A DNA stretch of 64,000 nucleotides. Origin: Pseudomonadota bacterium. Its GTDB lineage: Bacteria > Desulfobacterota > Syntrophobacteria > Syntrophobacterales > Syntrophobacteraceae. Shown here one piece after another: positions 6,511-49,977 of this stretch; within the stretch, counting starts at the first letter, position 1, and the number at the start of each line of letters is the position of its first letter. A model generated the notes under the pieces. The model was not told the origin of the DNA and made no database searches. It saw only the letters and a list, made by a program, of their open reading frames with translations. The DNA is taken from positions 1-64,000 of the forward strand of contig JAEZHY010000293.1 in assembly GCA_023416335.1 (NCBI GenBank), read 5' to 3'. The position numbers were made by a program, and so were the translations under genes.

Positions 6511-6619
6511 TATGCTCCGGATGACAACAGAGGACCCGATCCGTCCCCTGCTTCGGGCAGTGCCTTGGAGCACGGGACGGATTGCCGTCCGAAGACTCTG
6601 GTCAAAAGGAGAAACTTCC

Positions 6620-8814: not shown

Positions 8815-9969
8815 TCAGTGCCCCGTTCCGGTCGCGGGAGGTGAATAGATGTTGACCGGCCAACCGCCGCAAACCCAGCTTTCCGGGGTCATTATGTCCG
8901 CGCAGGGGGGCAGCACGAACATGTTGCCACCTGCGCCCTTCGGCACTCTCCAGAGGGCATGATCGACGAGCAGGTACTGGCCTGGGACCGCTGCCGTCAT
9001 TTCGAATACCGCCGCCGATCCCGGCGCGATGTATACCGTTTCTTCATTGAGGTCGGGAGTCGCCCGGCTGCCCCTCACGACCCTGTCGAAAATCTGACCA
9101 ATTATGTGGAAATTGGAACCGATATTAGGGCCGCCGTTTACGAAAAAGATCCTCACTACATCCCCGGGCAACACCCTCATGGTGTGACCGAACAGATCCA
9201 TGTCCGTCAGGGCCTTCTGATGCCCGTTGAAGGTGTAGATATCCGGATGCTCCGCTGAAGCCTTGTTTGCGTCCAGATCGTAAAAGGGCCCTGACGATAC
9301 CTCAGGATCGGTCACGACGGCATCGGTCGGGTACCATTCACCCTGGCCGACATAGAATTCCTTGACCTGCTTCCGGTCGACCACCATCGGAAGCCCACCC
9401 CTTGGCTCGATCATGATCAGACCGTACATGCCGTGTGCAACATGTTCCCACGGCATGCCTTCCCCTGCGCAATGGTAAATGTAGGCCCCTTCCCGCATTG
9501 CTTTGAACGTCAGGGTCTTTGTCTGTCCGTCCGGCATCACGGCTGTTACGGCGGCCCCTCCGCCCGGCCCCATTACTGCATGGAGATCGATGTTGTGTGG
9601 TTCGAGATTGGGAATGTTGCTGGTGAGGTTGATGACGACCGTATCCCCTTCCATGCATCGAATCATGGGGCCCGGCACCGACGGTTTTGCAATTGGATTT
9701 CCCTGGGCATCCGCCCTGGCAAAGGTCCAGAACTTGTAAACCCTGTCCGGCGTAAGATTGGCAAGAACCTCCACGGCCGCCAGGTTTACGGTTATTGTGG
9801 TTGGAACATTTCTTCCGTTCACCGGCTTTCCAACCTCGGTGGGATTCTTTGCAACGTCCGGAAGCACGGGGAGTTCCGCACTTGCGATTCCCTGCCAGGC
9901 AAACAAAACGAGGACCACTAATGCGAAAAGTCCTCCTCGAATAAAACGTGATCCGGCAACAGCTCTCAT
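8815..9969 (-). CDS. Second copper-containing nitrite reductase (NirK, AniA-like)
   Basis: This 384-residue protein is a close paralogue of the one at 5356-6510, sharing long identical stretches around the metal sites. All ligands are kept: EPHNIDLH, YHCAGEGMPWEHVAHGM, NFHIIG and LVDHALW. A signal peptide ends near GIASA. The start at 9969 is chosen because GAGGAGG lies just upstream and the signal peptide begins there; the open frame runs on to 10032. The gene faces the nirK-cytochrome pair and has its own upstream region. Two copies of one nitrite reductase on opposite strands may be regulated separately or may have different electron donors (inference). Divergence is mostly in the leader and the first 60 mature residues. 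Confidence 0.85.
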   Translation of the reverse strand: MRAVAGSRFIRGGLFALVVLVLFAWQGIASAELPVLPDVAKNPTEVGKPVNGRNVPTTITVNLAAVEVLANLTPDRVYKFWTFARADAQGNPIAKPSVPGPMIRCMEGDTVVINLTSNIPNLEPHNIDLHAVMGPGGGAAVTAVMPDGQTKTLTFKAMREGAYIYHCAGEGMPWEHVAHGMYGLIMIEPRGGLPMVVDRKQVKEFYVGQGEWYPTDAVVTDPEVSSGPFYDLDANKASAEHPDIYTFNGHQKALTDMDLFGHTMRVLPGDVVRIFFVNGGPNIGSNFHIIGQIFDRVVRGSRATPDLNEETVYIAPGSAAVFEMTAAVPGQYLLVDHALWRVPKGAGGNMFVLPPCADIMTPESWVCGGWPVNIYSPPATGTGH

Positions 9970-10407
9970 CTCTTCCTCCTCGCGTTTATTCTCCTCGTTC
10001 CGGCAAGCGATTGCGTTCAAGCCGAGCGGCATAAGCTCGTCCTCGAACCGTTTCCATTCTTCGCCTAAAGAATCTTACAGGCTCGTGGGCGGGCGCTTAC
10101 GGAACTGTCGGGGTGAAAGGAACAATTTCGTTTGGGAACAGGAATGGATGCTTACATGAAGAGCAACTTCCGTGCCGCACCCATTTTCCGTGAATTGAGC
10201 TGAATTTGACAGGGTGGGGTTAGGACTGATGTGGCGGATTGTGAGACATATTTGTCTTCGGCCCGCAAGGGATGCAGGAACTCAAATGATTTCGAAACAG
10301 CCCTGCCGGGGGAGGACCTTTTTATCTATACGGGTGATGTTTTTTGTCTTAATGAGGGTGAAACGCGGGACGCTATCCGTTCCTGACTGATTTTCTTTTT
10401 GATGGTG
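9970..10407. other. Upstream region of second nirK, no gene seen
   Basis: This gap holds the ribosome binding site and presumably the promoter of the minus-strand NirK gene, and the 3' flank of the minus-strand dehydrogenase. No clear promoter motif, repeat-family copy or open frame with coding character was recognised. A T-rich run occurs near 10337-10345. Confidence 0.4.
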
Positions 10408-31577: not shown

Positions 31578-32435
31578 CTATACAAGCGCGTAGATCTCTT
31601 CCAAAGTCCGGGCGACCCTGACTCCTGCGCCGGACAGGAATTCGTATTTCGAAGCCGCCGTTCCGAACCCCCCGGATACAATCGCTCCGGCATGTCCCAT
31701 TCGCTTTTCCGCGGGGGCGTTTGCGCCGGCAATGAACGCTATAACCGGCTTCGGATAGCTGGTTTCCTTTATGTACCTGGCAGCGGTTTCCTCGCCCGCG
31801 CCGCCGATCTCCCCGATCATGACGACCTTCTCGGTCATATCGTCCTCGCGGAAGAGTTTGAGCACATCGATAAAATCCAGTCCTTTCACGGCGTCGCCTC
31901 CGATGCACACACAGGTCGACTGGCCCCGGTTTCTGTAGCCCAGGTTCGAGGAGACCTCGTGCGTCAGGGTGCCGCTGCGGGAAATGATTCCGATATTTCC
32001 TTCCTTGTAGAGGAACCCGGGCATAATGCCGACCTTCGTACGCCCGGGGCTGATCACGCCGATCGTATTGGGTCCCACCACACGCACGCCCTGTTCGGCT
32101 GCACGCTTCTGAATTTTGAGCGAATCGTGGAACGGGACGAACTCCGTTATGATTACAACCAGGGGAATGGAATAGTCGATTGCCTCTATTGCGGCATCCA
32201 GGACGCCTGCGGGCGGCACCAGGATCATGCTCGCGTCCACGGGCGTATCCTTGAGCACTTCCGCGACCGTATCGTAGACCGGGACTCCCGCGACAGTCTG
32301 CCCGCCCTTGCCCGGAGTGGTCCCCGCAACCACTTTCGTTCCGTATTCGAGCGCCCTGGCTGCGTGATATGCGCCCTGTTTCCCGGTAATCCCCTGAATT
32401 ATGACCTTCGTCTCTTTATCTATCAAAATGGACAT
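31578..32435 (-). CDS. Succinyl-CoA synthetase alpha subunit
   Basis: This 285-residue subunit matches SucD. The CoA-binding region has GITGKQGAYHAARALEYGTKVVAGTTPGKGG, and the phosphorylated histidine is in MGHAGAIVSGG. Together with SucC it converts succinyl-CoA to succinate with ATP or GTP formation. It is six bases from sucC. The gene is the last of a Kor-Suc block, so it supplies substrate-level phosphorylation from 2-oxoglutarate. Length is normal. Confidence 0.93.
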   Translation of the reverse strand: MSILIDKETKVIIQGITGKQGAYHAARALEYGTKVVAGTTPGKGGQTVAGVPVYDTVAEVLKDTPVDASMILVPPAGVLDAAIEAIDYSIPLVVIITEFVPFHDSLKIQKRAAEQGVRVVGPNTIGVISPGRTKVGIMPGFLYKEGNIGIISRSGTLTHEVSSNLGYRNRGQSTCVCIGGDAVKGLDFIDVLKLFREDDMTEKVVMIGEIGGAGEETAARYIKETSYPKPVIAFIAGANAPAEKRMGHAGAIVSGGFGTAASKYEFLSGAGVRVARTLEEIYALV

Positions 32436-32441
32436 GTCGTA

Positions 32442-33590
32442 TTATCTCCGGCCTACCGCGGCCATCAGCATGGAAACCGCTTCTTCCGTGGTTCCGTATT
32501 TCACGATAGGAATACCGATTTTTTCGAGTATCTCCCAACCCTCGTCCTGGGAGTGGCCGCGCATCTTCACAACGATGGGTATCCGGGGTGAATCGGCGTG
32601 AACCACATCGGCGATCCCGTTCGCCATGACCTCGCAGTTGTTGATGCCTCCGAATACGTTCATCAGCACGCCTTCAACGCCTGGTGTCTTCAGGACCATT
32701 CTCAGCGCCGCCGCAGTCTTTTCCCGCGATACTCCGCCGCCCAGGTCCATGAAATTCGCCGGCTTGCCCCCCGCCGCGGCCACCATATCCATGCTGGCCA
32801 TGCAGAGACCGGCCCCGCCGGCTATCACGCCGATGTTCCCGCTGCCAAGGCGCACGTATGCGAGCCCCTGGCTCATCGCGTCTGCCTCGTAGGGATCGCT
32901 CTTTACCTCTTCGTCTCCCGCCCTCAGGGATGGATCGCGGCGGAAGGCCGCCGAGTCGTCCAGTTCCATCTTGGAGTCCGCGGCATAGACCCTGCCGTTC
33001 CCGTCAATTACCAGCGGGTTTATCTCGGCCGTTAGCGCGTCGTGATGAAAATAGCAGGCTACCAGTTTCCGAATGGTTTCGGCTACGGCCCGAAGGGCAG
33101 GGCCGTCGAGTCCCGCCTGCTTGCAGAGATTCAGAATATGGTGAATTTCCGGAGGATGATACGGGTCGAGCGGGAGTCTCCCCAGAGCGCCGTCCGGATC
33201 TGAGGCACTGCTTTCTATGTCCACGCCTCCGAGGCACGAAAAAAGAAGTACGGGCCCGTTTACGGCGTGATCGAAGGTGATGCCCGCGTACAATTCCCGC
33301 CGGATTTCGAGCTTCTTTTCGACAAGCAACGTGGTTATGGTTTCCTCGCCGACCTTCGCGCCCAGGAGTTCGCGCGCGATAGCTTCCGCTTCTTCAGAGT
33401 TCTGCGCGAAGCGCACGAGCCCGGATTTGCCTCTTCCGCCCCGTTGCAACTGGGCTTTGACAACCACCGGACATCCAATCCTTCCGGCAGCCGCGCCGAT
33501 TTCCGACACATCCCCCACCGGCTCCCCATTGGGAACGGCAATGCCCATACGCCGGAATACATCTTTTCCTTCAAACTCGTAGAGCTTCAT
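32442..33590 (-). CDS. Succinyl-CoA synthetase beta subunit
   Basis: This 382-residue ATP-grasp protein matches SucC. The N terminus is MKLYEFEGKDVFRRMGIAVP, the grasp region has CPVVVKAQLQRGGRGKSG, and the C-terminal part has FMDLGGGVSREKTAAALR and NVFGGINNCE. It forms the nucleotide-binding half of the enzyme with SucD. The gene is followed by sucD and preceded by the Kor gamma subunit with 17 bases between, so one transcript is likely. Confidence 0.93.
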   Translation of the reverse strand: MKLYEFEGKDVFRRMGIAVPNGEPVGDVSEIGAAAGRIGCPVVVKAQLQRGGRGKSGLVRFAQNSEEAEAIARELLGAKVGEETITTLLVEKKLEIRRELYAGITFDHAVNGPVLLFSCLGGVDIESSASDPDGALGRLPLDPYHPPEIHHILNLCKQAGLDGPALRAVAETIRKLVACYFHHDALTAEINPLVIDGNGRVYAADSKMELDDSAAFRRDPSLRAGDEEVKSDPYEADAMSQGLAYVRLGSGNIGVIAGGAGLCMASMDMVAAAGGKPANFMDLGGGVSREKTAAALRMVLKTPGVEGVLMNVFGGINNCEVMANGIADVVHADSPRIPIVVKMRGHSQDEGWEILEKIGIPIVKYGTTEEAVSMLMAAVGRR

Positions 33591-33607
33591 TTCTATATTA
33601 TCCCCTG

Positions 33608-34159
33608 TCAGGCGGATTTCCGGGCCGCTTCGGCCAGTTCGAAGCCGCGTCTCAAAGCTGCCCGGTTCACGTCAAGCGTCTTGGGCGGCACATTGCCGTC
33701 CAGGGCCAGGAGCAGGCTGTCCAGAGCAACCGGGGCAACCGCGCCCGAAAGAGCGCCAAGCATGATGATGTTGGCGAAAAGCGCTCGTCCGAATTCCTCT
33801 TCGGCGATCCGGGTCGCGGGCACCGCCACTTTATGAAGGAATTCCGGAGAAACGCTGCCGATCAGCGTCGGATCGTAGATGACCACGGTCCGGTCCGGCG
33901 TCGCGAGGTCTTTGTACTTGTCCAGGGCCGGCTGGGACATCACCACCAGGGCGTCTATCTTCCTCGTCTTGATGTAGTCGATTTCCGAGTCGCTGATCAC
34001 CACCTCGGATTTGCAGGCGCCGCCGCGAGCCTCGGGACCGTAGCTCTGAGTCTGGGCCACTTCACGGTCCTCGTAAATCCCCGCTGCCTGCGCGAGCAGC
34101 AGCGCCGCCTTTATGATCCCCTGACCGCCAAAGCCGGCAAACATTATCTCACTTCTCAT
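33608..34159 (-). CDS. 2-oxoacid:ferredoxin oxidoreductase gamma subunit
   Basis: This 183-residue protein is the gamma subunit of the POR/KOR family, with the signature MFAGFGGQGIIKAALLLAQAAG and YGPEARGGACKSEVVIS. It overlaps the ferredoxin gene by 11 bases. With the alpha, beta and delta subunits it oxidises a 2-oxoacid, most likely 2-oxoglutarate because sucCD follows, to the acyl-CoA and reduced ferredoxin in the cytoplasm. Confidence 0.88.
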   Translation of the reverse strand: MRSEIMFAGFGGQGIIKAALLLAQAAGIYEDREVAQTQSYGPEARGGACKSEVVISDSEIDYIKTRKIDALVVMSQPALDKYKDLATPDRTVVIYDPTLIGSVSPEFLHKVAVPATRIAEEEFGRALFANIIMLGALSGAVAPVALDSLLLALDGNVPPKTLDVNRAALRRGFELAEAARKSA

Positions 34160-34388
34160 TTTCAGCGACCTCCACGGTAATGGCCATGTCGGGGCAGATC
34201 ATCTCGCACAGGAGGCAGTGACTGCATTTCTCGACGGAGACGGCCTGGGGCAAGAGGCTCCCTTTGGCACTGCGCTCGTGGGAAACTTCGAGCACCTTCT
34301 GCGGGCACTGATCGACGCACAGGAGGCACCCCTTGCATGCCTTCGGGTCGATATCTATCGCCTTTGTTTTCTTAAGAGTATCTTTCAT
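34149..34388 (-). CDS. 2-oxoacid:ferredoxin oxidoreductase delta (ferredoxin) subunit
   Basis: This 79-residue ferredoxin has two clusters: CKGCLLCVDQCP and CSHCLLCEMICP, giving two [4Fe-4S] centres. It passes electrons from the TPP subunit to free ferredoxin. The ATG at 34388 overlaps the beta subunit stop by four bases (ATGA). The longer frame is rejected. In many genomes the delta gene comes first (D-A-B-C); here the order is A-B-D-C. Confidence 0.9.
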   Translation of the reverse strand: MKDTLKKTKAIDIDPKACKGCLLCVDQCPQKVLEVSHERSAKGSLLPQAVSVEKCSHCLLCEMICPDMAITVEVAENEK

Positions 34389-35200
34389 GCTGTCGCAGCC
34401 CTCCTGACGCGCTCCAGGTTTTCCACGAATTCCGGACGCCCTTCGCAGCTGTGAAGAACCCCCGTTACGATTTTGCCCTCCAGTTGCTCGGGCGAGAGTT
34501 TTTCCGAGGCTTTCAAGGTAACCGAGCGGCTCTTGATCATGCGCAGGTATTCGGCCGGCTGAGTCATGGAATAGATGTACCGGCCTGCCTGGGTCGGGCA
34601 TTGGGAAATAACCTGTACGAATGAGAATCCCTTGTGCTGCATTGCTGCTTCGATTCCGGCTATCAATGCCTTCGGCTGGGCGGTGGTGTAGCGGGCAATG
34701 TATGTGGCGCCCGCGCCTCTGACCAGGCCGCATACATCGAACGAAGGTTCGGGATTGCCGTAGGGGGTCGTCTGGGTCCGCGCGTCGCTCGGGGTTGTCG
34801 GGGCCACCTGGCCTCCGGTCATCCCGTAGATAGCGTTGTCCAGCATGATGACGGTCATGTCGATATTGCGCCGCGCCGCATGAATGAGATGATTTCCGCC
34901 GATTCCGACACAGTCGCCGTCACCGGAAAAGACCACCACGGAGAGCTCCGGTTTGGCCATCTTCATGCCCGTTGCAACGGCCAGGGCGCGCCCATGCAGG
35001 GTGTGAATCACGTCGGCGTTGACAAAAACCGGTACCCAGGCGGAGCAGCCGATCCCGGAAACGAGGCCCAGCCGGTCGAGGCAGTCGAGATTGTCGATTA
35101 CCCTCAGGAATGCATTGAGCACTGTTCCGTGCCCGCAGCCGGGACAGAAGATAGTCGGAAGCGCACTTTTGCGCAGGTATTTTTCGCCCAGAGGATGCAT
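34385..35200 (-). CDS. 2-oxoacid:ferredoxin oxidoreductase beta subunit (TPP-binding)
   Basis: This 271-residue subunit binds thiamine diphosphate. It shows FCPGCGHGTVLNAF, VSGIGCSAW, HGRALAVATGMKMA and the TPP/Mg motif FSGDGDCVGIGGNH, followed by DNAIYGMTGGQVAPTTP. These are typical of KorB. It lies 22 bases after the alpha gene. Substrate cannot be fixed by sequence alone; the sucCD neighbours favour 2-oxoglutarate. Confidence 0.92.
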   Translation of the reverse strand: MHPLGEKYLRKSALPTIFCPGCGHGTVLNAFLRVIDNLDCLDRLGLVSGIGCSAWVPVFVNADVIHTLHGRALAVATGMKMAKPELSVVVFSGDGDCVGIGGNHLIHAARRNIDMTVIMLDNAIYGMTGGQVAPTTPSDARTQTTPYGNPEPSFDVCGLVRGAGATYIARYTTAQPKALIAGIEAAMQHKGFSFVQVISQCPTQAGRYIYSMTQPAEYLRMIKSRSVTLKASEKLSPEQLEGKIVTGVLHSCEGRPEFVENLERVRRAATA

Positions 35201-35222
35201 GGCGTATTATCTCCTCAATTGT

Positions 35223-36359
35223 TTAAAGCGCCCGGCGGACGGCTTCGTATATTTCTTCCGGCGTATGCAGGTTGCCTCCCACCTTGGGCAGCGATACCAC
35301 CTCGATATCGCAGTATCTTTCCAGCTCACGATTGAGCTTTCCCATGTTCATTTCCGGCACGACGATCCGGCGAATTCCGGGGAGCAACGCTTGGAAAGCC
35401 TTCACAGGGAAGGGCCACAAAATCCGGGGCTGGAAGAACCCGACCTTGAGCCCGTCGGCATTTGCTTCCCTCACCGCCGAATATGCGGACCTTGCCACCG
35501 AACCGTAAGCGGCGACAAGCACCTCCGCTGAATCCGTGAAAGCGGTCCGGACATCGACGAGGTCGTCTGCGTGGTTCGTGATCTTGTCGCACAGACGTTT
35601 TACGAGCGCTCCGCTGATCCTGGGATCGGCCCCCCTGCGGTTTCCGGCTTCGTCGTGAAGCTGGCCGTCCACCAAAAGCCTGTAGCCCTGGCCGAAGGCG
35701 GGCATCCCGTCGAGCAGGCCGGAGGGCAGAGGCCGATAGGGAAGGTATTCGCCCTTCGGGGTCGCTGGCTGGCGGCGCTCGGTCACTTCGATCTCGGCGG
35801 GGATTCGCAATCTTTCCCTGGTGTGTCCGACGATCTCGTCGGACATCACGAAAACCGGATTACGGAATTTTTCGGCGAGATTGAACGCCTTTACGGTGAG
35901 TTCATAGCATTCCTGTACAGATGAAGGGCACAGGGCGATGACTTCGTAGTCGCCGTGTGATCCGTACCTTGCCTGCATGATATCCTGCTGGGAGGAACCC
36001 GTAGGTTGACCAGTGGATGGCCCGCCCCGCATCACATCGATAATGACGCAGGGGGTTTCGGTTTCGACCGCGTAGCCGATTCCTTCCTGCATGAGCGAAA
36101 ACCCGGGCCCCGATGTTGCGGTGCATGCTTTCACCCCGCCCCAGACCGCGCCTATCACTGCGCCGATCGAGCCGATTTCATCTTCCATCTGTACGAAACC
36201 GCCGTTGCAGCGCGGCATCTCCGCCGCCATGAGTTCGGCGATTTCCGAAGCCGGCGTTATGGGGTAGCCCGCAAAGAACCGGCATCCGGCGCGGATTGCC
36301 CCTCGTACACAGGCCTCGTTGCCCTGTGCTATCAGAACCTGTTCTTTATTCAAATCCAC
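35223..36359 (-). CDS. 2-oxoacid:ferredoxin oxidoreductase alpha subunit
   Basis: This 378-residue subunit matches KorA. It shows GNEACVRGAIRAGCRFFAGYPITPASEIAE, TATSGPGFSLMQEGIGYAVE and MRGGPSTGQPTG. It is the first of the Kor genes. The upstream gap of about 230 bases contains TTCACTG and repeat A fragments, and a promoter could lie there. The gene is co-oriented with an aminotransferase and a TAXI binding protein upstream. Confidence 0.92.
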   Translation of the reverse strand: MDLNKEQVLIAQGNEACVRGAIRAGCRFFAGYPITPASEIAELMAAEMPRCNGGFVQMEDEIGSIGAVIGAVWGGVKACTATSGPGFSLMQEGIGYAVETETPCVIIDVMRGGPSTGQPTGSSQQDIMQARYGSHGDYEVIALCPSSVQECYELTVKAFNLAEKFRNPVFVMSDEIVGHTRERLRIPAEIEVTERRQPATPKGEYLPYRPLPSGLLDGMPAFGQGYRLLVDGQLHDEAGNRRGADPRISGALVKRLCDKITNHADDLVDVRTAFTDSAEVLVAAYGSVARSAYSAVREANADGLKVGFFQPRILWPFPVKAFQALLPGIRRIVVPEMNMGKLNRELERYCDIEVVSLPKVGGNLHTPEEIYEAVRRAL

Positions 36360-40111: not shown

Positions 40112-41377
40112 TCAGACAACCTCCTCTGCGTGAACCCCTGCAGCCTCTGCGGCGGGGTGCGTGCCCATCGACCCGAGGAAGCGGCCGAACCTGTCCTGAA
40201 GGAAAGCCCCGACCACGCCGTCATCCGTTGTGTTTCCCGCGGTGCTGAACATCGGGATCAAGCCGCTGAAAACGGTCACGAAGGTAGTGACGAAAACGCT
40301 TTGATCCGGCACGGACAGCAGCACGGCGATGATCGGCGACATGAAATAACCTGCCCCTCCCGGTATTCCTGGCGACTCCAGGCCCAGGATCATAACGGGC
40401 GGGATCATCATGATGATTTCGGTGAGCGAGATGGGAATGTTCAGCAGACGGCATACGACGATGGTTACGACCAGCACGGACATTGTGCTGCAGTTCTTGT
40501 TGAGAACCGTACCGAAAACGATCGAGACTTCGGCGACCTCCTCATGGAGTCCGAGGTCCTGCTCGGCCGAGATAATGTTGATGGCCAGCGTATCATACGA
40601 ACCGCCCGTGCCGAAGCCCGTCGGCCACACTGTCGCGTAGTACGAGATTATCTGTTTGAAAGTTCTTTTGGTGCATAGCCTGGTCAGGGTGATCATGAGG
40701 AGCACCCAGACGCAGGTGATGATCATTACCCAGAGAACTGCCTGCCCGTAGAGCGCCATGCCCTTGGTGCCGAATTTCATGGGAATGCCGATTGCCAGGC
40801 AGCCGATCATGATGGGGTAGTACCAGAGCAGTTTCTTGAAGAACCAGAGGATGTGGTCACCCATCGCGATGAAGGCGAATGCGATGCGCTGCAAAGGTTT
40901 GAATTTGGCACTTACGCAACCCACGACCATGCCGCCGACAAGAGCCTGGAGAAGCGGCTGCTGCGAAAGTACATTGGCGAAGGTGTGCCCGATTTGCATG
41001 GCCCACGCTGCCGGCCCGGGGATCTCGACTCCCGGGAGCGAAAAGGGGACGCCCGACAGCACGTGCAGCCAGGTGGTTGCATAAACCAGTGATACACCGC
41101 CCATGAACACATACATGCCCAGGATCAGGCCGAACATTTTTCCCGCCTTATCCTTGTGGTAGAGCATGAGCTTGGCCATGGCGGCCGCGAGCAGATTGAA
41201 AATCAGAAATGCCGCAAATGTGACGATTGTTTTGGGAAAATAGGTGCCGCTGAGATACAGATAATTGACGAATGTGTTCTTGGGGAAAGCGAGCCCAAGA
41301 CCAAGGCCGATTATCAGGAAAACGACCACCCTGATCGGCAATGGTATGTTGAATAATGCCCAGCCTTTTTTGCTCAT
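40112..41377 (-). CDS. Dicarboxylate/amino-acid:cation symporter (DAACS family)
   Basis: This 421-residue membrane protein belongs to the family of sodium- or proton-coupled dicarboxylate and glutamate carriers. It shows an FGTGGSYDTLAINI segment in the place of the re-entrant loop, NKNCSTMSVLV, and GIPGGAGYFMSP. The serine-rich motif of GltP is altered here. The ATG at 41377 follows GGAG. It lies after the fumarase genes, so fumarate, malate or succinate are likely substrates (inference). A gap of 510 bases separates it from fumarase beta. Confidence 0.8.
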   Translation of the reverse strand: MSKKGWALFNIPLPIRVVVFLIIGLGLGLAFPKNTFVNYLYLSGTYFPKTIVTFAAFLIFNLLAAAMAKLMLYHKDKAGKMFGLILGMYVFMGGVSLVYATTWLHVLSGVPFSLPGVEIPGPAAWAMQIGHTFANVLSQQPLLQALVGGMVVGCVSAKFKPLQRIAFAFIAMGDHILWFFKKLLWYYPIMIGCLAIGIPMKFGTKGMALYGQAVLWVMIITCVWVLLMITLTRLCTKRTFKQIISYYATVWPTGFGTGGSYDTLAINIISAEQDLGLHEEVAEVSIVFGTVLNKNCSTMSVLVVTIVVCRLLNIPISLTEIIMMIPPVMILGLESPGIPGGAGYFMSPIIAVLLSVPDQSVFVTTFVTVFSGLIPMFSTAGNTTDDGVVGAFLQDRFGRFLGSMGTHPAAEAAGVHAEEVV

Positions 41378-41889
41378 TCTTTTCTCCAGCATAACAGTGG
41401 GACAGATCAACCCTGAGTCTGGGCCAACTTGAGCGAGGCCTGGGCATCGCGTGCCATACCGGAACCTGCCCCTCCCGGAAAATTGTGCGGTTGGGAGGCT
41501 GCAGCGGTGGAACTACGATCTGCTGCTTAAACCTTCACTTCTGTGCCCGTCAGTCAACCTATCTTGAACTTGGATCTGAGCATGCGGCATTCGAGGCGGT
41601 ACTGGAGTCCTCACATTCATGATGCCGCGGCTTAAGTGTCCATGTCTCACCCCCTCACTACCGGATGGTTCCGGAAAATCCTTTCAGTCGAAACCAACGA
41701 TGGGTTTCATCCTGATATTGGCAATTCAAAAGACGGTTCTGGTTCGGAGGGCCGGTCGGTGGGCACGATGAAGCTCTGTGCCCACCCTACCCGTGCTGCC
41801 GCTTTACCCGTCGTTTCTGAATTCCTGCTCTACCCGTGCCGGTTTCCAATCTTCTGCTGGTTCCCAAGGTCCGCCTTGAGAACCCCGTT
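41378..41889. repeat. Gap with repeats A (41758-41791) and B (41856-41890)
   Basis: GGTGGGCACGATGAAGC and TGTGCCCACCCTACC form a family A hairpin. GGTTCCCAAGG with TCCG loop and CCTTGAGAACC forms the family B hairpin, directly beside the fumarase beta stop codon, where it might act as a terminator although no T run follows. The left 350 bases show no gene or clear promoter. Confidence 0.6.
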
Positions 41890-42477
41890 CTACACTCCGA
41901 GCTTTTCGTAAATCTGCGGAAGGCGCAGGATGGCCTCGGCTTTGACCTCCTCGTAGAGATGTCTGCCGTGGCTGTCCATCGCGACCGTGAGCGGCCCGAA
42001 ATCCTTCACGCGAAACTGGTAGAGCGCCTCGGGATGCAGATGCTCCCAGTAGACGGCCTCCACTTCTTCGATCTGCTGCGTTTCGAGCGCCGCTGCTCCC
42101 CCTACGATTGCCAGGTAGACGGCCCCGTACTTCTGCATCGCTTCCAGGCTCCCCTGGTAGAGGCCGCCTTTACCGATGATGGCGCGCACGCCGTACTTGC
42201 CGATGAGAGCGGGAGTGAAGCGGTCCATACGCGTGCTGGTGGTGGTCCCCACGCAGATCTTCTCCCATTTCCCGTCAACCTTGCGGAGGCTTGGGGCGGT
42301 GTGGATGCAGGGAGCGCCCGCCAGGCTGACCGGCGGTTCGTGATCCTGGTCGAACATGTATATCTGGGTCAGGTCGCGGATGCCGAAGAGGAGCCCGTCG
42401 AAATAGACGATGTCGCCGGCCCGCAGATTTCTTATCTCTTCTTCCGAAAAAGGCGATTTGAGATGATATTCCGCCAT
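41890..42477 (-). CDS. Fumarate hydratase class I, beta (C-terminal) subunit
   Basis: This 195-residue protein is the C-terminal part of the two-subunit iron-sulfur fumarase. It shows GDIVYFDGLLFGIRDLT, TTTSTRMDRFTPALI, GKGGLYQ and the substrate-binding HPEALYQFRVKDFGPLTVAMDSHG. AAGGAG precedes the ATG at 42477. Together with the alpha subunit it hydrates fumarate to malate. The longer frame overlapping the alpha gene is rejected. A L(+)-tartrate dehydratase identity is possible but less likely beside succinate dehydrogenase genes. Confidence 0.88.
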   Translation of the reverse strand: MAEYHLKSPFSEEEIRNLRAGDIVYFDGLLFGIRDLTQIYMFDQDHEPPVSLAGAPCIHTAPSLRKVDGKWEKICVGTTTSTRMDRFTPALIGKYGVRAIIGKGGLYQGSLEAMQKYGAVYLAIVGGAAALETQQIEEVEAVYWEHLHPEALYQFRVKDFGPLTVAMDSHGRHLYEEVKAEAILRLPQIYEKLGV

Positions 42478-42499: not shown

Positions 42500-43381
42500 T
42501 CAGTATCCGTATTCGACCGTGCCGTCGGGTCGGATGACGCCCCTGGCCCGCCTTGCCGGCCAACACTGGGTGTTGACGGCGACCGGGTTCTGAGTGATGT
42601 GGGTGTAGGCCGATTCGATGTGCACCGCGAGTGTGGATACATCGCCGCCGAGCCCCATGGGCCCCCGGCCGGTGGCATTGATTGCTTCCTCCAGTTCCTC
42701 TTCCATTTCGGCGAGCTGAGGATCGGGATTGCGTTGGCCCACCGGGCGCATGATTGCATCTTTGGCCAGTTTCATGACAAGGTCGGCCGTGCCGCCGAGC
42801 CCGACTCCGATTACTCCCGGCGGGCAGGGGTTGGCCCCCGATTCGACCACGGCGTCCAGCACGAACTTCTTGACGGCCTTAATACCGTGCGCCGGATAGA
42901 ACATCTGCATTTTGCTCATGTTTTCCGAACCGGATCCCTTCGGGGCCATGAGGATGTCCAGCGTGTCCGAATCCTCGACGAAATCGAAGTAGATGACCGG
43001 AAGTCCCGGACCTACGGAAGTCTGCGGGTTCACCCTTGTCAGAGGATGGGTGGAACTGCTGCGAAACGGGAACTCCTGTGTCGCCCGCTTTGCACCCTCA
43101 TACAGGCGCGTCTTGATCTGGTACCCGTTCCAGGGAAACCGAGACCCGATCTTCACCTTGTAGATGGGAAGCCCGGTATCCTGGCAGATAAGGGTCTTGT
43201 TCCTGTCCGCGACTTCGATGTTTCTGAAGATTGCTTCGAATACCGCCAGCGCCGCCGGGTTGGTTTCCCGGTCGCGGGCTTTCTTCAGGGCCGTCCTCAC
43301 ATCGGGCGGCAGGTCGCACAGGGCCTTGATATAGAGTTGTTTGGCCGTTTCTTCGACAATGCCGTAGTCAAAGTTGTTCAT
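42500..43381 (-). CDS. Fumarate hydratase class I, alpha (N-terminal) subunit
   Basis: This 293-residue protein binds the [4Fe-4S] cluster used to activate substrate water. Cluster Cys residues are in ICQDTGLPIYKVK, NPCPPGVIGVGLGG and VNTQCWPARRARG. Length and motifs match the fumarase alpha subunit. It is followed after 22 bases by the beta subunit and preceded after 18 bases by the cytochrome b::c gene, so fumarase appears to be part of the respiratory operon. Confidence 0.88.
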   Translation of the reverse strand: MNNFDYGIVEETAKQLYIKALCDLPPDVRTALKKARDRETNPAALAVFEAIFRNIEVADRNKTLICQDTGLPIYKVKIGSRFPWNGYQIKTRLYEGAKRATQEFPFRSSSTHPLTRVNPQTSVGPGLPVIYFDFVEDSDTLDILMAPKGSGSENMSKMQMFYPAHGIKAVKKFVLDAVVESGANPCPPGVIGVGLGGTADLVMKLAKDAIMRPVGQRNPDPQLAEMEEELEEAINATGRGPMGLGGDVSTLAVHIESAYTHITQNPVAVNTQCWPARRARGVIRPDGTVEYGY

Positions 43382-43399: not shown

Positions 43400-44815
43400 T
43401 CACTGTACCGGAGTAGCTGCAGGATTCTTGAGAACTTCGTCCCGATTCAGGATCTTTATGGTCTCCTTGCTGAAATCCAGGGAGAGCACGAAAGAGGCCA
43501 GGGTTCTGAGGTCCTGTTCGGGCAGGTCGTATTTCGGCATGATGTTCGTCGTTCGAACCGCCTGTGGATTTTTGAAATATTTCGTCAGGCCGTCCGCATC
43601 CCGGCCTTTCGCAACCATATTGGACAGGTCGGGACCGGTTCTGTGTCCGCCCTTGCCCTGAATCTGGTGGCAATATGCGCAGTCTCGGTCGGCATAGAGG
43701 TAGAGACCCCGAGCTTCCTGTGCCGTGAGTACCCGCTGGGGAGCAGGGATTATTTCGCCGTAGGGTTTAGCCCCGGCAAAGCCCATGAGGCTCAGGTAAA
43801 GAACGCCTGCTATCGCCGTAACTCCGGCGGCCGTGCAAAGCGGGCGGTTACCGGCTCCCAGGGTTTTGACCCTGTTCAGGAAGGGCAGGGCGAACAGGAT
43901 GATGGTGCCGAGGATGGGGATCGCCAGGCTTCCGACCGTCTCCCATACTCCCGAGAAGTAGGTCAGGAGCTGGAAGAGCCACATGTAGTACCATTCCGGC
44001 CTTGGCAGATAGGATTCGATGAGCGTGCCTGCGATCTCTTCGCGCGGAACGCTGCCGATCACCGAGAGGCCGATCAGCACGATCAGCACGACAGCGAAAA
44101 CAACCGAACTGCGCAACGTGTGCTCAGGGTAAAAGCGGTATGGCAAGGCTTCTTCAGCTTCTCCTGCATCATTTGAGGAGTGCTCCGTCAGGCCGTGAAT
44201 CCGCACGAGGTAGATGTGAAAAGCAACGAAGAAGACGAGCAGGGCCGGCAGGAGCAACGTGTGTATTGCGTAAAACCGCGTCAGGGTAAGTCCCGACATG
44301 GTTGAGCCGCCAAGCACGACTCTCGTAATGAAGTCGCCGACTGCCGGTATATCTCTGGGAATATTCGAACTGACGACGGTAGCCCAGAAGGCCTTCATAT
44401 CCCAGGGAAGCAGGTAGCCGGTGAAACCGAGGCCCAGGGTCACCAGGAGGAGGCAGATGCCGATCGTCCAGGTAAGTTCCCTCGGCGCTTTGTAATTGCC
44501 GCTGAAGAAGTTGGTCAGCAGATGGATGACCACCGCCAGGACCATTGCGCCCGCCCCCCAGTGATGCAGGCCGCGCAGGATGGATCCCATCGGAACGTCG
44601 TTCATGATGAAATCGATCGACTGGTACGCCTTGTCGGACGAGGGGTTGTAGTACATGGCCAGGAAGATTCCGGTCACGGCCATGAGTCCGAACAGGAGTG
44701 CGCAGAGCGTCCCGATCGTGGCGGACCAACCTGTCCCCTGTGGGAGCTTCTTGTAGAGAAAGGGCTTCAGGTACGGATCCCAGCCGATTCTGTGACGGAA
44801 TGTGCTGCAGCTCAT
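43400..44815 (-). CDS. Cytochrome b fused to a C-terminal cytochrome c domain
   Basis: This 471-residue protein has a full cytochrome b core with eight helices. Haem b ligands are seen in GLHHWGAGAMVLAVVIHLL and in FYAIHTLLLPALLVFFVAFH, and the quinone-site motif PEWY is in LPRPEWYYMWLF. After the last helix (about 340-365) comes a cytochrome c domain with CAYCHQ at residue 379 and a probable Met ligand in NIMPKY. It should take electrons from menaquinol and from the Rieske centre and give them to a periplasmic acceptor. Its ATG overlaps the upstream stop by one base (TAATG), linking it tightly to the SdhB::Rieske gene. Confidence 0.87.
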   Translation of the reverse strand: MSCSTFRHRIGWDPYLKPFLYKKLPQGTGWSATIGTLCALLFGLMAVTGIFLAMYYNPSSDKAYQSIDFIMNDVPMGSILRGLHHWGAGAMVLAVVIHLLTNFFSGNYKAPRELTWTIGICLLLVTLGLGFTGYLLPWDMKAFWATVVSSNIPRDIPAVGDFITRVVLGGSTMSGLTLTRFYAIHTLLLPALLVFFVAFHIYLVRIHGLTEHSSNDAGEAEEALPYRFYPEHTLRSSVVFAVVLIVLIGLSVIGSVPREEIAGTLIESYLPRPEWYYMWLFQLLTYFSGVWETVGSLAIPILGTIILFALPFLNRVKTLGAGNRPLCTAAGVTAIAGVLYLSLMGFAGAKPYGEIIPAPQRVLTAQEARGLYLYADRDCAYCHQIQGKGGHRTGPDLSNMVAKGRDADGLTKYFKNPQAVRTTNIMPKYDLPEQDLRTLASFVLSLDFSKETIKILNRDEVLKNPAATPVQ

Positions 44816-46062
44816 TATCCCACCTCCACCAGCAGATGTTCCGAATCCACTTTGAGGGCGTACCTGTCGAGAGGCCGGGGCGGCGGACCGGCGATCACAT
44901 TGCCGTCGCGGTCAAAGGTCCCTCCGTGGCAGGCGCAATGGAAGCGGCCCGCGGAAGCATCCCATTTGACGATGCAGCCCAGGTGCGTACAGCTCGCCTT
45001 GAAACAGACCATTTCGTCTCCCGTCCGGGATACGAGGACGGGAACTTCGTTTGCCTGGGTGTAGAGGCCGTTCTTGACGTCGTAGCGCATGTGGAATGTG
45101 GCAACATGACCCGCCGGAATTTCTCTGACCGGCGCAACCGGCACCCACATTTTGGGAGTCTTCGAAAGGCTCGGCCCCACAACTGCGGTAGCCGCGACGC
45201 CGCCCACGACAATTGCCGCGCACGCACCCAGGACACCGACGCCGATCCGGCGCACGAACGTCCTCCTGTCCATTTCGGTCAGGGGCGGAGGAGACGTCAC
45301 GTCGAGTACCGGGGCAGGGTCCTCCTCCCGTGGTTTGATCTCTTTCAGGTGCTTTAGTGCGAGCCTCTGGATGTATTTGATGGCGCGTGTGCCGCTGATG
45401 TTCTTGGGACAGACTTCGGTGCAGTTGAATTCCGTGCGGCAGTTATAGCAGGATGCCAGGGCGCGGTCGAGACGCTCCGAGAATAGGCCGTCACGGCTGT
45501 CCGCCAGCAGGGTGAAGGCCCTGTTGAGTGCCGCCGGGCCGGCGTAGCCGTCGTGGTAGTGGCACATCGTGCAGCTCGAAACACAGCACCCGCAGGCGAT
45601 GCACTCGGTGGCCTGGCCTATGTCCAGCCTCTCCTGCGAATCGGGACGAATCTTGAGCGGTTCGTCGAACTCTTCCCTCGGTTCGTAAAAGGGCAGGGCC
45701 TCCTCGTATTTCTTGAAGAAGGGCTCCATGTCCACAACCAGGTCTTTTATGACCGGGAAATGGTTGAGAGGCCTGATCGTGATCTCCTGACCCTGTGGAA
45801 TATGGGAAACATTGGTTTTACAGGCCAGTCCCTCTTTACCGTTTATGACCATGCCGCACGAGCCGCACATGTTCACACGGCAGGCATAGCGGAAGGCCAG
45901 GGAATTGTCCTGTTCCCGCTGGATGCGCAGCAGCACGTCCAGGATCGTTGTCTTGCTCTCGTTCGGAATGTTGAGCAGGTAGCTTTCAAAGCTGCCGGGG
46001 CCGCCTTTGTGCGGGTCGTATCGGAATATCCTGATTTCGCGCACGTTTTCTGCCTGAGCCAT
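44815..46062 (-). CDS. Succinate dehydrogenase iron-sulfur subunit fused to a Rieske protein
   Basis: The 415-residue frame holds two complete proteins. Residues 1-245 match SdhB/FrdB: CRVNMCGSCG and a later Cys for [2Fe-2S], CIACGCCVSSC for [4Fe-4S], and CYNCRTEFNCTEVCP for the third cluster region. A proline-rich linker (245-263) follows. Residues 264-415 match a QcrA-type Rieske protein: a twin-arginine-like RRTFVRRIG, a helix at about 273-295, then CTHLGC and CACHGG. The order puts SdhB in the cytoplasm and the Rieske domain outside, which is topologically sensible. No stop codon or ribosome binding site lies at the internal ATG (45273), so a true fusion is favoured. A separate internal start or an assembly error remains possible. 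Confidence 0.85.
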   Translation of the reverse strand: MAQAENVREIRIFRYDPHKGGPGSFESYLLNIPNESKTTILDVLLRIQREQDNSLAFRYACRVNMCGSCGMVINGKEGLACKTNVSHIPQGQEITIRPLNHFPVIKDLVVDMEPFFKKYEEALPFYEPREEFDEPLKIRPDSQERLDIGQATECIACGCCVSSCTMCHYHDGYAGPAALNRAFTLLADSRDGLFSERLDRALASCYNCRTEFNCTEVCPKNISGTRAIKYIQRLALKHLKEIKPREEDPAPVLDVTSPPPLTEMDRRTFVRRIGVGVLGACAAIVVGGVAATAVVGPSLSKTPKMWVPVAPVREIPAGHVATFHMRYDVKNGLYTQANEVPVLVSRTGDEMVCFKASCTHLGCIVKWDASAGRFHCACHGGTFDRDGNVIAGPPPRPLDRYALKVDSEHLLVEVG

Positions 46063-46156: not shown

Positions 46157-46498
46157 CTAGTAGGTGGCGTACCAGACGATGATCATGACGAGCAGGCCGA
46201 GGCCCGTCAGACCCCAGATGAGCGCCCGCTGGTACTTGATGCCCACGAGATTGAAGTCGAGAAGAATGACCCGCAGACCCAGTGACGCGTGGAAAGTCAC
46301 GGAAAGCAGGAGCAGAAACTGGATAATCGGTTTGTAAGTCAAGGTTACGTGGAGACAGAGGAACACGACAATGGCGAGCGCGGAGATCCGCTGCCACATC
46401 CATGCCCACATGCCCATCTGGGTGCTTTCCCTGCGGCGTGGGTCGTATTCGCCCCAGCGTAGAGGTTTTCGATATTCGATGGAAATATTCTGATCCAT
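46157..46498 (-). CDS. Succinate dehydrogenase membrane anchor (SdhC-like)
   Basis: This 113-residue protein has three hydrophobic helices. WQRISALAIVVFLCLH and VTFHASLGLRVILLDF match the SdhC family, including the likely haem b His in the second. It would bind quinone and hold the flavoprotein and iron-sulfur subunits on the membrane. Usually two three-helix anchors (SdhC and SdhD) or one five-helix anchor are present; only one three-helix anchor is seen here. AAAGGAG precedes the ATG at 46498. It lies between sdhA and the SdhB::Rieske gene. Confidence 0.82.
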   Translation of the reverse strand: MDQNISIEYRKPLRWGEYDPRRRESTQMGMWAWMWQRISALAIVVFLCLHVTLTYKPIIQFLLLLSVTFHASLGLRVILLDFNLVGIKYQRALIWGLTGLGLLVMIIVWYATY

Positions 46499-46545
46499 GG
46501 ACTGCTCCTTTGGTCGTTTCCTGAATACCGCAGTGGTGGAAACCC

Positions 46546-48270
46546 TTATTTCTTGTATTTCTGACATTCCTCAACCGACTTGTGTTTGAAGACGACCGGC
46601 TTCTTTTCCGCTACCGGTTTCCCGTCCTCGCCCCGTTTGAGGAAAATGTTGAACAGGCCGTAGTCGTCGCGCTGTTCGGGAAAATCCTGCCTGAAGTGCG
46701 CACCGCGGGTTTCTTCCCGAAGCATGGCCGATGAAGCGATCATCCTGGTGGCATCCAGCATGCTCAGCAAATTGAGCCATGTGGTGTACATCATGTTGTA
46801 GGCAGGCCCTCCGGTGACCTTCGCCTTGTAGACCTCCAGGGCGATTTCCTCGATTCCGGTCAGAGCTTCGGTGAGTTCTCCCGCTGTCCGGGCAACGCCG
46901 ACCTTGTTCCAGTTGAGTTCCTGGATTTCCTTCTGGAGTTCGAACGGATTTGGTCCCTGAGCGCGTTGGAGCGGGGCGCTGAGCCTTGCGATGATTTCCT
47001 CCGCCATGCCCTGCCTGGATTCCTTGATGGTGAGATTTCCGTTGGTAAGATACTTTCCGATGTTTTTCCCGGTCAGCCGCCCGTAGACGCACGAGTCGCA
47101 TATGCCGTTTCCGCCGAGGCGGTTTGCGCCGTGTACGCCTCCGGAGTCCTCACCGGCCACGAAGAGCTTTTCCAGTGTGGCCTTGCCGCCGGTATCGATC
47201 ACCGCGCCGCCCATGAAGAAGTGCGCCGAGGGACCGACCGGTACGCGGCCTCTTGCCAGGTCGTAGTTGAACTGGGCACAGCGCTCAGCCATGCCGGGGA
47301 AGTTCTTCAGAACGTATTCGGCTCCGAGGTGGGACGCATCGATATGGACTCCGCCCTCCGGACAGGCCCTGCCGGCCATCATCTCAAGGTAGGAGGACCT
47401 GCTCACGACGTCGCGTGTCGCTCGCTCTCCGACGTCGGGCGAATACTTGAGCATGTACCGCTCGCCTTCACCGTTATAGAGGTGGGCACCCGAACCCCGC
47501 AACCCTTCCTCCAGAAGAGCGCCGGCGACGACGCTGCCCTGGACGATCAGCCCGGTCGGGTGGAACTGGAGCATCTCCATGTCCTTCATTATGGCGCCTG
47601 CCCGGTAGAGCATGCCTATACCATCGACGGACTTTTCCGGGCCCGGGGCGTGGAAGCGATAATGCGTGGGGCCCCCGCCTGTTGCAACCATGGTGGCGGC
47701 AGCTTCTGCGACGAGGAATTCCCCCCGCCTCATGTCGAAAAGCACCGCGCCGGTGACTGTCTGCCCGGTTTCATCGAGCAGAAGTTCCACGGCCCTGGTT
47801 TCTTCGAGGACCTTGATGCGCCGTTTGATGATCTGTTCCGTCAGGCGGCTGATGATTTCGATTCCGGTGAGGTCCCCTTTGTGGACCGTCCTGTCGAAGG
47901 ACTGTCCCGCAAAGGCTTTCTGATGGATCGTGCCGTCGGGATTGCGATCGAAAAAGCAGCCGAACTTTGTTTCCAGCTCTTTTATCGTCGGCGTGGCCTG
48001 TTGAACGAGCGTCAGGGCCATGTCCTGGTCGTTGACGTACTGGCCGCCCTTGAGCGTGTCCATGAGGTGTTTTTCATGGGAATCTTCGCGATTCAGGACG
48101 ACGTTGAAACCGCCCTGAACCATGCGGCTGCATCCTCCCTTGCCCTTGAGGGCCTTGGTTGCCATGAGGATGTTCAGATTGGGATTGATATCGTGAGCAT
48201 AGAGCGCGGCCAGCTGCGCCGCGGCTCCCATTCCGATGATGAGCAGATCGGCCTTGATTTTTGCAACCAT
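46546..48270 (-). CDS. Succinate dehydrogenase/fumarate reductase flavoprotein subunit
   Basis: This 574-residue FAD protein has the usual order: ADLLIIGMGAAAQLAALYA, DMEMLQFHPTG, the catalytic-region GERYMLKYSP, GPSAHFFMGG and HGANRLGGNGICDSCVYG. It oxidises succinate or reduces fumarate. The position of the histidine that links FAD covalently in most SdhA/FrdA proteins reads GGCSRMVQGG, so that His seems to be missing, as in L-aspartate oxidase, which binds FAD non-covalently. The TGH seen later in typical SdhA is TGI here. L-aspartate oxidase is unlikely because sdhC and sdhB follow. It is the first gene of the operon that runs to fumarase. Confidence 0.87.
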   Translation of the reverse strand: MVAKIKADLLIIGMGAAAQLAALYAHDINPNLNILMATKALKGKGGCSRMVQGGFNVVLNREDSHEKHLMDTLKGGQYVNDQDMALTLVQQATPTIKELETKFGCFFDRNPDGTIHQKAFAGQSFDRTVHKGDLTGIEIISRLTEQIIKRRIKVLEETRAVELLLDETGQTVTGAVLFDMRRGEFLVAEAAATMVATGGGPTHYRFHAPGPEKSVDGIGMLYRAGAIMKDMEMLQFHPTGLIVQGSVVAGALLEEGLRGSGAHLYNGEGERYMLKYSPDVGERATRDVVSRSSYLEMMAGRACPEGGVHIDASHLGAEYVLKNFPGMAERCAQFNYDLARGRVPVGPSAHFFMGGAVIDTGGKATLEKLFVAGEDSGGVHGANRLGGNGICDSCVYGRLTGKNIGKYLTNGNLTIKESRQGMAEEIIARLSAPLQRAQGPNPFELQKEIQELNWNKVGVARTAGELTEALTGIEEIALEVYKAKVTGGPAYNMMYTTWLNLLSMLDATRMIASSAMLREETRGAHFRQDFPEQRDDYGLFNIFLKRGEDGKPVAEKKPVVFKHKSVEECQKYKK

Positions 48271-48532: not shown

Positions 48533-49696
48533 TTACGCGCTCCTGTAAAGCTTCGTCATGATGAACTCTCTGTGGCCGAGTGATTCAGCCGCGGTGTGTC
48601 TGCCGTTCGCGGTCCGGCGGATCATGTCGAGCAATTGGTCGCCAGCCTGGTCCAGGGTCAGTTCGCCCCTGAGGATGCCGGAGCAGTCGTAGTCGATGTG
48701 TTCGGACATGGTGCTTACGGTGATCGGGTTGGCCGACAGCTTGATTACGGGCTCGATCGGGTTGCCGATGACGTTGCCCTGGCCGGTCGGGAAGAGGTGG
48801 ACGACGAAGCCCGCCGCTGCCCAGAGGGTTACGGCTTCAGCGGCAGCCGAAGAGGTGTCCATGTACCAGAGGCCCGGGCCTGTCGGGGCTTCGGCCGGTT
48901 CCAGAACGCCTACATACATCGACTTCTTGCCGATCTTCTGGAGGTTTCCGAATGCCTTTTCCTCGATCGTGGTCAGGCCGCCCTTGATATTTCCCTTTGT
49001 GGGCTGGGATCCGGACAGGTCGTCGGTCTTGTTCTCATTGATGAAGTCGTTGTAATCAGTCCACATTTTGTAGAATTTATCGCCGATTTCCGGGGTTGCG
49101 CCGCGTGATTGACAAACCAGTTCCGCACCCGTGATTTCCGAGGTTTCACCGAAGGATGTCGTTGCGCCTACAGCATTCAGCTTGTCGATTGCGTTGCCGA
49201 CGGTGGGGCACGAAGCCAGGCCCGATGTCGTGTCGGACTCGCCGCATTTTACCGAGACCCAGATTTCGGAGAGGTCTACTTCTTCCTTTTGCAGTTCAGT
49301 TGCCCATTGCAGGAACTCTTTGGCCTTCCGGCTGGCGTCCGCAACGGTCTGGATCTGGCCGTGCCGCTCGATTGCGAATCCGGCTGCAGGCTTTCCAGTC
49401 TTCTTTATGCCTTCAACGATGATGTTGGTCCATTCGGGTTCGATGCCTATTACGACGGCCGCCGCAACGTTGGGATTGCAGCCGGTGCCGATGATCGTTC
49501 GGAAAAAGAGCTTCAGATCTTCGCCGAACTGCAGGCGTCCGTAGGCGTGTGGCAGGGCAAGAGTCCCCGGGATATTGTTTGCGACTGCTTCGCAAGCTGC
49601 GTTCGAAAGGTCGTCCAGAGCGAGGATGACGACATGATTGCGTACGCCTACTCGGCCATTTTCACGACGATAGCCCCATACTTTTCCCAGACTCAT
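48533..49696 (-). CDS. UxaA-family lyase, probable (2R)-sulfolactate sulfo-lyase beta subunit
   Basis: This 387-residue protein has the UxaA C-terminal fold. It shows REDGR-like [28 protein letters not shown], the Cys-bearing [19 protein letters not shown] and a [14 protein letters not shown] segment, and ends [12 protein letters not shown]. From memory these resemble SuyB more than altronate dehydratase. SuyAB splits sulfolactate into pyruvate and sulfite. GAGGTGG precedes the ATG at 49696; a GTG three codons upstream lacks a proper site. The gene starts two bases after the small subunit stop. Confidence 0.75.
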
Positions 49697-49698
49697 GG

Positions 49699-49977
49699 TT
49701 ACCACCTCTTCGTTTTCAGATTGTGAACATGGACATGAGCGCCCTTTTCGAATCCGGCGACCACTCTGCCGATATCGTGCCCGTACTTGAGGACCGTGTC
49801 CCCATCCTTCATCGGGGCCAACGCGATCTTATGACCGAGAGGGATGTCCTCCAGGGCCTTGATCTGGATCGGGGCCTGCGAGTCCATATAGATCCCGCTG
49901 ACCGTCTCGTTCGCTTTGATATCGACCGTGGCTACGCCGACCGTGTCGGCTTTCTCATGAACCAAAAACTGAATCAT
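49699..49977 (-). CDS. UxaA-family lyase small subunit, probable SuyA
   Basis: This 92-residue SAF-domain protein matches the small subunit of sulfolactate sulfo-lyase and the N-terminal domain of altronate/galactarate dehydratases. It shows [26 protein letters not shown] and the conserved end [20 protein letters not shown] precedes the start. It is always encoded next to the large subunit. The upstream 360 bases carry a candidate sigma-54 promoter and palindromes. Confidence 0.8.

Follow-up and report, generated by a model that had tools for sequence, protein, structure and literature searches.

A gene joining SdhB to a Rieske protein

The window considered here is a stretch of 64,000 nucleotides (contig JAEZHY010000293.1 of assembly GCA_023416335.1, from a member of the Syntrophobacteraceae), and its minus strand carries a gene in which SdhB, the iron-sulfur subunit of complex II, is fused to a Rieske protein of the type that serves cytochrome bc complexes. 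The gene (44815..46062) encodes 415 amino acids in one frame with zero internal stop codons, and its parts can be recognized from the sequence, Pfam matches, an alignment and an AlphaFold model. Residues 1-240 (45343..46062) form the SdhB part, with the cysteines of the [2Fe-2S], [4Fe-4S] and [3Fe-4S] clusters. These are followed by a weakly conserved, Pro-rich linker (residues 241-265, 45268..45342), a twin-arginine motif with a transmembrane helix (residues 266-293, 45184..45267), and a Rieske [2Fe-2S] domain that is predicted to be periplasmic (residues 305-415, 44818..45150), all on the minus strand.

The Pfam matches to Fer2_3 (residues 10-116, 1.1e-33), Fer4_8 (151-222, 4.9e-7) and Rieske (306-401, 3.3e-12) all exceed their curated cut-offs, and the SdhB/FrdB family model TIGR00384 scores 200.8 bits against a cut-off of 88. 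The protein thus has what defines an SdhB/FrdB subunit, that is Fer2_3 plus a 4Fe-4S/3Fe-4S dicluster domain with the conserved Cys ligands, and what defines a bc-type Rieske subunit, namely the C-x-H and C-x-x-H boxes (here CTHLGC...CACHGG) and a single helix N-terminal to the domain. In an alignment of the window protein with 120 listed protein matches (121 rows), the cluster cysteines of SdhB are conserved in 119-121 rows, the Cys/His ligands of the Rieske part in 119-120. In the AlphaFold model (mean pLDDT 85.3), residues 266-293 form a helix that follows an SdhB fold and precedes a Rieske fold; the individual domain folds are predicted with good confidence. The original prediction, made from the letters of the window alone, had described a single frame holding the SdhB cluster motifs, a Pro-rich linker, a transmembrane segment and a complete Rieske protein, and frame, Pfam, alignment and model bear this out; the fusion architecture itself is well supported.

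The fusion gene is real and conserved. Sequencing error, a frameshift or a chimera was rejected as its source, as two other contigs contain a 95% identical homologue and the fusion occurs in named species as well. It is very improbable that two proteins are made from the gene, whether by cleavage or by internal initiation at Met264. Upstream of the start at 46062 stands CGGAGG, matching five of the six bases of AGGAGG, while the internal ATG at 45273 has a best upstream match of 2/6, in agreement with the earlier claim that no ribosome binding site precedes it. Methionine is found at position 264 in 38 of the 121 rows, and V, I or L in 55 more, which can be counted in favor of two products; as a conserved residue, however, Met264 fails, and internal initiation was rejected on this ground and for want of a ribosome-site match. 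In addition, 8 of 20 loci have no ATG, GTG or TTG within 25 codons upstream of the twin-arginine site (L013 and L021, where the motif pattern was unmatched, are excluded from the count), so the possibility of translating the Rieske part on its own is not conserved.

Distribution of the fusion

A protein database search returned 4035 matches in total, and 119 of the 120 listed carry both PF13085 and PF00355, P0117 being the one without a Rieske domain. The original prediction could name no common family of this kind; there is such a family, with records from several phyla, and its named members are annotated simply as succinate dehydrogenase iron-sulfur subunits or 2Fe-2S proteins. Among 26 loci on genome contigs, the fusion is present in 22, as a single frame of 405-470 residues; of the remainder, L022 is cut by a contig end and L024-L026 encode a plain SdhB. 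Record titles, on which the taxonomy rests and which may be wrong for metagenome-assembled genomes (MAGs), place carriers in Desulfovibrio, Solidesulfovibrio, Desulfotignum, other Desulfobacterota, Nitrospirae, Acidobacteria and a Sumerlaeota MAG. Firm carriers are Desulfovibrio cuneatus DSM 11391 (L006), which is a strain genome, and Desulfomonile tiedjei (P0021), where the gene lies on a 6.5-Mb contig.

In a sample of 395 genomes from one phylum, at least six have a fusion of the window type (G004, G270, G249, G015, G013 and G296, three of them already among the genome-contig loci) and at least two a divergent type (G267, G398). Two further phyla, sampled with 347 and 295 genomes, gave matches in 23 and 33 genomes respectively, with one full-length match each, the seed itself, under a query and cut-off that favor one lineage. 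None of 179 matching plasmid records covers 80% of the query. Five other long Rieske frames in the 395-genome sample (L028, L035, L037, L038 and L039) have no SdhB match. Among these, L035 (7611-10088, minus strand) joins cytochrome b, cytochrome c and Rieske in a single frame of 825 amino acids, L028 (856-2136, plus strand) joins a Rieske to a part judged by eye to be multi-helix, and L039 (675-2612, plus strand) has a Rieske box within a 645-amino-acid protein that by eye resembles the FAD amine-oxidase/desaturase type.

Operon organization

The fusion gene is the third of four minus-strand genes. It is preceded by sdhA (46546..48270), encoding a TfrA-like flavoprotein, and by sdhC (46157..46567), whose start is uncertain (an alternative in-frame ATG lies at 46498) and which encodes a single membrane anchor. 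It is followed by a gene for a PetB/PetD-like cytochrome b with a PEWY motif, fused to a mono-heme cytochrome c (43400..44815); the start of this gene overlaps the fusion's stop codon (TAATG) and has a ribosome-site match ahead of it. The order sdhA-sdhC-fusion-cytochrome b/c holds in all 22 fused loci as far as the contigs reach, contig ends removing sdhA and sdhC from L013 and the cytochrome gene from L004, while sdhA of L017 is split across two frames. No sdhD, which would encode the second small anchor of complex II classes A, C and D, stands among the four operon genes, whose intergenic gaps are at most 222 bp (L017, with its split sdhA, excepted); this negative concerns the operon only, as the genomes have unassigned Sdh_cyt matches elsewhere. 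In the unfused relative L085, the operon encodes SdhA and SdhB of the same type, SdhC together with a second anchor, and a fumarase beta subunit, and it possibly represents the state before fusion.

Membrane placement and the linker

The fusion junction coincides with the point at which a free Rieske protein would start, as twin-arginine motif, helix and domain follow in that order. The two arginines are present in 103 of the 121 rows, with RA in 17 and RG in one, and a hydrophobic stretch C-terminal to them is found in 120 rows. The 18 RA/RG variants are proteins between P0076 and P0120, 12 of which have Met preceding Asp (MDRATFLR). Such a layout suggests an N-in/C-out protein, with SdhB in the cytoplasm and the Rieske domain in the periplasm, which would match the needs of both; the cytoplasm-to-periplasm topology put forward earlier thus fits the order of the sequence elements, the placement being deduced from them.

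Some 240 residues of folded iron-sulfur protein stand N-terminal to the signal, which is of the twin-arginine translocation (Tat) type. If the helix is placed by Tat, this machinery would move the C-terminal half alone and leave a folded Fe-S enzyme domain in the cytoplasm. Actinobacterial Rieske proteins are known to have internal Tat signals, which follow two Sec helices (PMC5449189, in the part consulted), and in the portions of the open-access Tat literature covered by the search no partly Tat-moved layout with a cytoplasmic folded Fe-S domain was seen.

The spacing from residue 238 to the first arginine ranges from 17 to 89 residues over the alignment and is 20-30 in 95 rows. Cys and His abound in some linkers (CCCKAGH, CSCKCHE and CSCGGHHH, for example in L006, L011, L014, L017, P0059 and P0110), several of them in Desulfovibrio records, and at least two Cys occur in 14 of the 121 rows; from their composition these linkers could possibly form a metal site.

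The partners of the two halves

For the Rieske half, the adjacent gene provides a cytochrome b in which, over 18 rows, four b-heme His in two pairs, the Qo motif PEWY (E in at least 75%) and the CxxCH of the cytochrome c part are conserved. A complex III partner for the Rieske arm is therefore present next door. The SdhB half has as neighbors a flavoprotein with the dicarboxylate catalytic residues and a membrane anchor, as expected of a complex II iron-sulfur subunit. Class B complex II has one large di-heme anchor, an SdhC of five helices and about 200-250 amino acids; SdhC here has 136 amino acids, three predicted helices and two invariant His, and does not belong to that class. Class F was likewise rejected, as the anchor is small with three helices and the Rieske domain sits on SdhB. 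A Foldseek search with the SdhC model returned nothing at E 0.001 or better.

Other copies were looked for in twenty carrier genomes (completeness not given), of which 15 contain loci counted among the 22 with a fusion and five were taken from the phylum sample. In eight of them (G001, G004, which is D. cuneatus, G007, G008, G009, G011, G249 and G270) this operon contributes the sole PF00355 and the sole PF00033 match, and thus the only bc-type cytochrome b found; the fusion is the only Rieske protein found there that could serve the bc complex.

The flavoprotein and the direction of catalysis

The best profile for SdhA is TfrA-like (491.6 bits, under the family cut-off of 718). The residues that we take to be its dicarboxylate catalytic residues are conserved wherever the segment is present, except in L017. 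The segment that should house the covalent FAD-binding histidine, judging by the position assumed from ordinary SdhA, reads G-C-[ST]-R-M-V-Q-G-G, without His, in 28 of 35 rows, namely 25 from fused operons, the window included, and three from unfused relatives (L024, L085 and the plasmid locus L096). An SH motif occurs in three rows, L025 and L026 (unfused) and L036 (fused, the one member readable here of the second lineage described below), and four rows are cut at this point. According to the portion of PMC10238741 consulted, the flavin potential rises by about 100 mV through the covalent link, an effect that succinate oxidation requires. The missing histidine therefore favors fumarate reduction, or succinate oxidation that is possible only where the bc half removes menaquinol at once, and argues against easy succinate oxidation in the window, which lacks this hallmark of a succinate-oxidizing complex II.

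Downstream of the operon lie genes for the fumarase alpha subunit (42500..43381) and beta subunit (41890..42477; the listed open reading frame starts further upstream, at 42759) and for a transporter of the sodium:dicarboxylate symporter family (40112..41410), all on the minus strand. Genes for succinyl-CoA synthetase and 2-oxoacid:ferredoxin oxidoreductase (suc and kor; 31578..36359, minus strand) are found 5.5 kb past the fumarase genes. Both fumarase genes stand near the fusion operon in 15 of the 22 loci. Nearby kor/suc genes, which occur in L021 and L036 as well as in the window, suggest an oxidative or reversible tricarboxylic acid (TCA) cycle.

From this evidence the fused complex could be chiefly a fumarate reductase in an operon for dicarboxylate use, fed by menaquinol or by periplasmic cytochrome c electrons returned via the bc half. 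The TfrA-like flavoprotein, the missing FAD histidine in the 25 fused-operon rows, the fumarase genes and the symporter-family gene (in the window, L001 and L014) all speak for it. A menaquinol-oxidizing bc complex, however, would be expected to compete with fumarate reduction, L036 retains the SH-type motif, and the kor/suc genes point to the other direction, though they also fit a reductive cycle; taken together, we regard a mainly fumarate-reducing enzyme as somewhat unlikely. That succinate oxidation is the main direction in the window's lineage is an evenly balanced question.

A proposed covalent complex II-III unit

Complexes II and III are, in textbook terms, separate enzymes linked by diffusing quinone. 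Here the natural reading of the gene order and domain layout is that the two would function as a single complex, and it is very plausible that the fusion couples them physically. The operon would encode one membrane complex, with one polypeptide common to complex II and a cytochrome bc complex. In the cytoplasm, the SdhB half would be bound to SdhA and seated on SdhC. Its C-terminus would lead into one membrane helix, placed by the internal Tat-type signal, and from there to a periplasmic Rieske domain serving the Qo site of the neighboring cytochrome b/c protein. SdhC and cytochrome b would thereby be kept next to each other in the membrane, the latter probably occupying the face that SdhD takes in other complexes. 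Local exchange of the quinone, presumably menaquinone, would couple the uphill succinate/menaquinone step to the downhill menaquinol/cytochrome c step, the net reaction being that of a succinate:cytochrome c oxidoreductase (fumarate in reverse) with a Q-cycle. As a whole, this covalent unit with local menaquinone exchange and succinate (or fumarate):cytochrome c oxidoreductase activity is moderately probable. Of its parts, a stable II-III complex is quite likely, and local quinone exchange within it has about an even chance.

Several observations weigh against this unit. In addition to the missing flavin histidine, the second arginine of the signal is replaced in 18 of 121 rows, and kor/suc genes are rare neighbors, present in the short flanks of just 2 of 28 loci other than the window. 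At least one further Rieske or bc-type cytochrome b match was found in 12 of the 20 carrier genomes, and clear additional SdhB-like genes in many of 15 carrier genomes. Searching the 20 genomes for a heme-copper oxidase gave one in 12 and none in the other eight, so that oxygen is not always the acceptor and the final acceptor is not fixed.

The link may instead be an assembly tether that gives 1:1 stoichiometry and shared placement, both enzymes using the quinone pool independently. The variation of the linker in length (17-89 residues) and sequence is in keeping with this, as such a linker enforces no tight geometry; the single SdhC with no nearby SdhD nevertheless suggests an altered membrane interface, and a mere tether seems rather unlikely. 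At the other extreme, electrons could pass directly between SdhB or an SdhC heme and the cytoplasmic-side heme of cytochrome b, with no free quinone. The sole anchor has two invariant His and SdhB would lie on the side of that heme, yet the SdhC heme is itself putative; such wiring is distinctly improbable. The more elaborate form, one II-III electron circuit in which SdhD was lost, cytochrome b took its place and electrons pass directly between the SdhB/SdhC chain and the b hemes, is also improbable. Were it true, menaquinol oxidation at Qo would pull, or bifurcate with, the succinate/fumarate half-reaction inside one complex.

The fusion and its recurrence in other bacteria make it probable that two respiratory enzymes, which normally meet only via a mobile quinone, form one machine. 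Other bacteria pay for the uphill transfer from succinate to menaquinone with membrane potential (PMC10308238, in the text available), and a covalent II-III unit in several phyla and named cultured species would show another route for this step. With the fusion, quinone channeling also becomes open to test by deleting a single gene or cutting the linker.

Origin of the fusion

A second, divergent lineage (F2) comprises L029, L036 and fusions among P0121-P0151. Its gene order in the two loci read is sdhA, fusion, cytochrome b/c, sdhC, and its SdhB is 39-42% identical to that of the window. The L036 fusion adjoins sucCD and kor genes. Further fused groups include P0152-P0157 with P0159 and P0160, P0158, and P0166 (Calderihabitans maritimus).

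In the SdhB tree, F2 falls among unfused SdhB, and forcing all 31 fused rows into one clade costs 62 log units (p-AU 0.013). Grouping the 23 non-F2 fused rows alone is not rejected (p 0.19), and two unfused rows (L085 and L024) sit among them. In the Rieske tree the fused rows form a set distinct from 25 unfused ones (93/94), with F2 next to F3 (100/99); unfused Rieske proteins were sampled as relatives of the window Rieske only, and the naming of groups followed a first inspection. Among the 27 rows treated as unfused in it, P0248 is a fusion fragment and L038 is unplaced, and L041 was dropped, as the searched box is absent. The cytochrome b tree was uninformative on the origin of the fusion. 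A single origin was rejected on the SdhB tree, with which the Rieske tree disagrees; within the limits of this sampling, the disagreement is weak evidence for either two fusions or domain reshuffling, and the fusion may have arisen, or its halves been reshuffled, more than once.

Relation to known systems

The component parts are already known, and the new element is their covalent combination. Residues 1-240 resemble SdhB/FrdB in predicted fold, three cluster motifs and partner sdhA and sdhC genes, and the protein differs in its C-terminal Rieske domain past a membrane helix, in one three-helix anchor and in having no adjacent SdhD. It shares with bc/b6f Rieske subunits the CTHLGC...CACHGG box, the Tat-type motif with one helix and the adjacent PEWY cytochrome b, but its N-terminus is SdhB rather than free, and the cytochrome c is fused to cytochrome b. 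TfrB of thiol:fumarate reductase likewise extends an SdhB by a C-terminal redox part and pairs with a TfrA-like protein; in TfrB this part is a soluble, HdrD-like half, whereas the extension here is a membrane-anchored Rieske domain. The II-III supercomplexes of Tetrahymena and Perkinsus are built of separate polypeptides, unlike the fusion, in which the polypeptide is shared. By their entry titles (8gym, 9fq7), they too unite complexes II and III in one assembly. Class F complex II (Mycobacterium Sdh1, PDB 7D6V) also combines complex II with a Rieske cluster, which is in a six-helix membrane subunit and not, as here, in a separate bc-type domain; the same source states, in the part consulted, that complex II seldom appears in respiratory megacomplexes (PMC10238741). 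No description of an SdhB-Rieske fusion was found among the papers listed from the open-access literature, most subscription papers being outside the search, nor in the consulted parts of PMC12727194, PMC5317091, PMC3578206, PMC13053071 and PMC3538594.

Other features of the window

Upstream of sdhA lies a galactarate/altronate dehydratase-like gene pair (48533..49977, minus strand, as 48533-49705 and 49699-49977), which is found near 10 of the 22 fused operons. Rfam gave zero matches on the window. Two multicopper proteins (5146-6510, plus strand, and 8815-10032, minus strand) stand on either side of a multiheme protein (6365-8743, plus strand), which belongs to the cytochrome c552 family and has an fn3 domain. 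The first multicopper protein resembles copper nitrite reductase with 229.5 bits, below the cut-off of 296.3.
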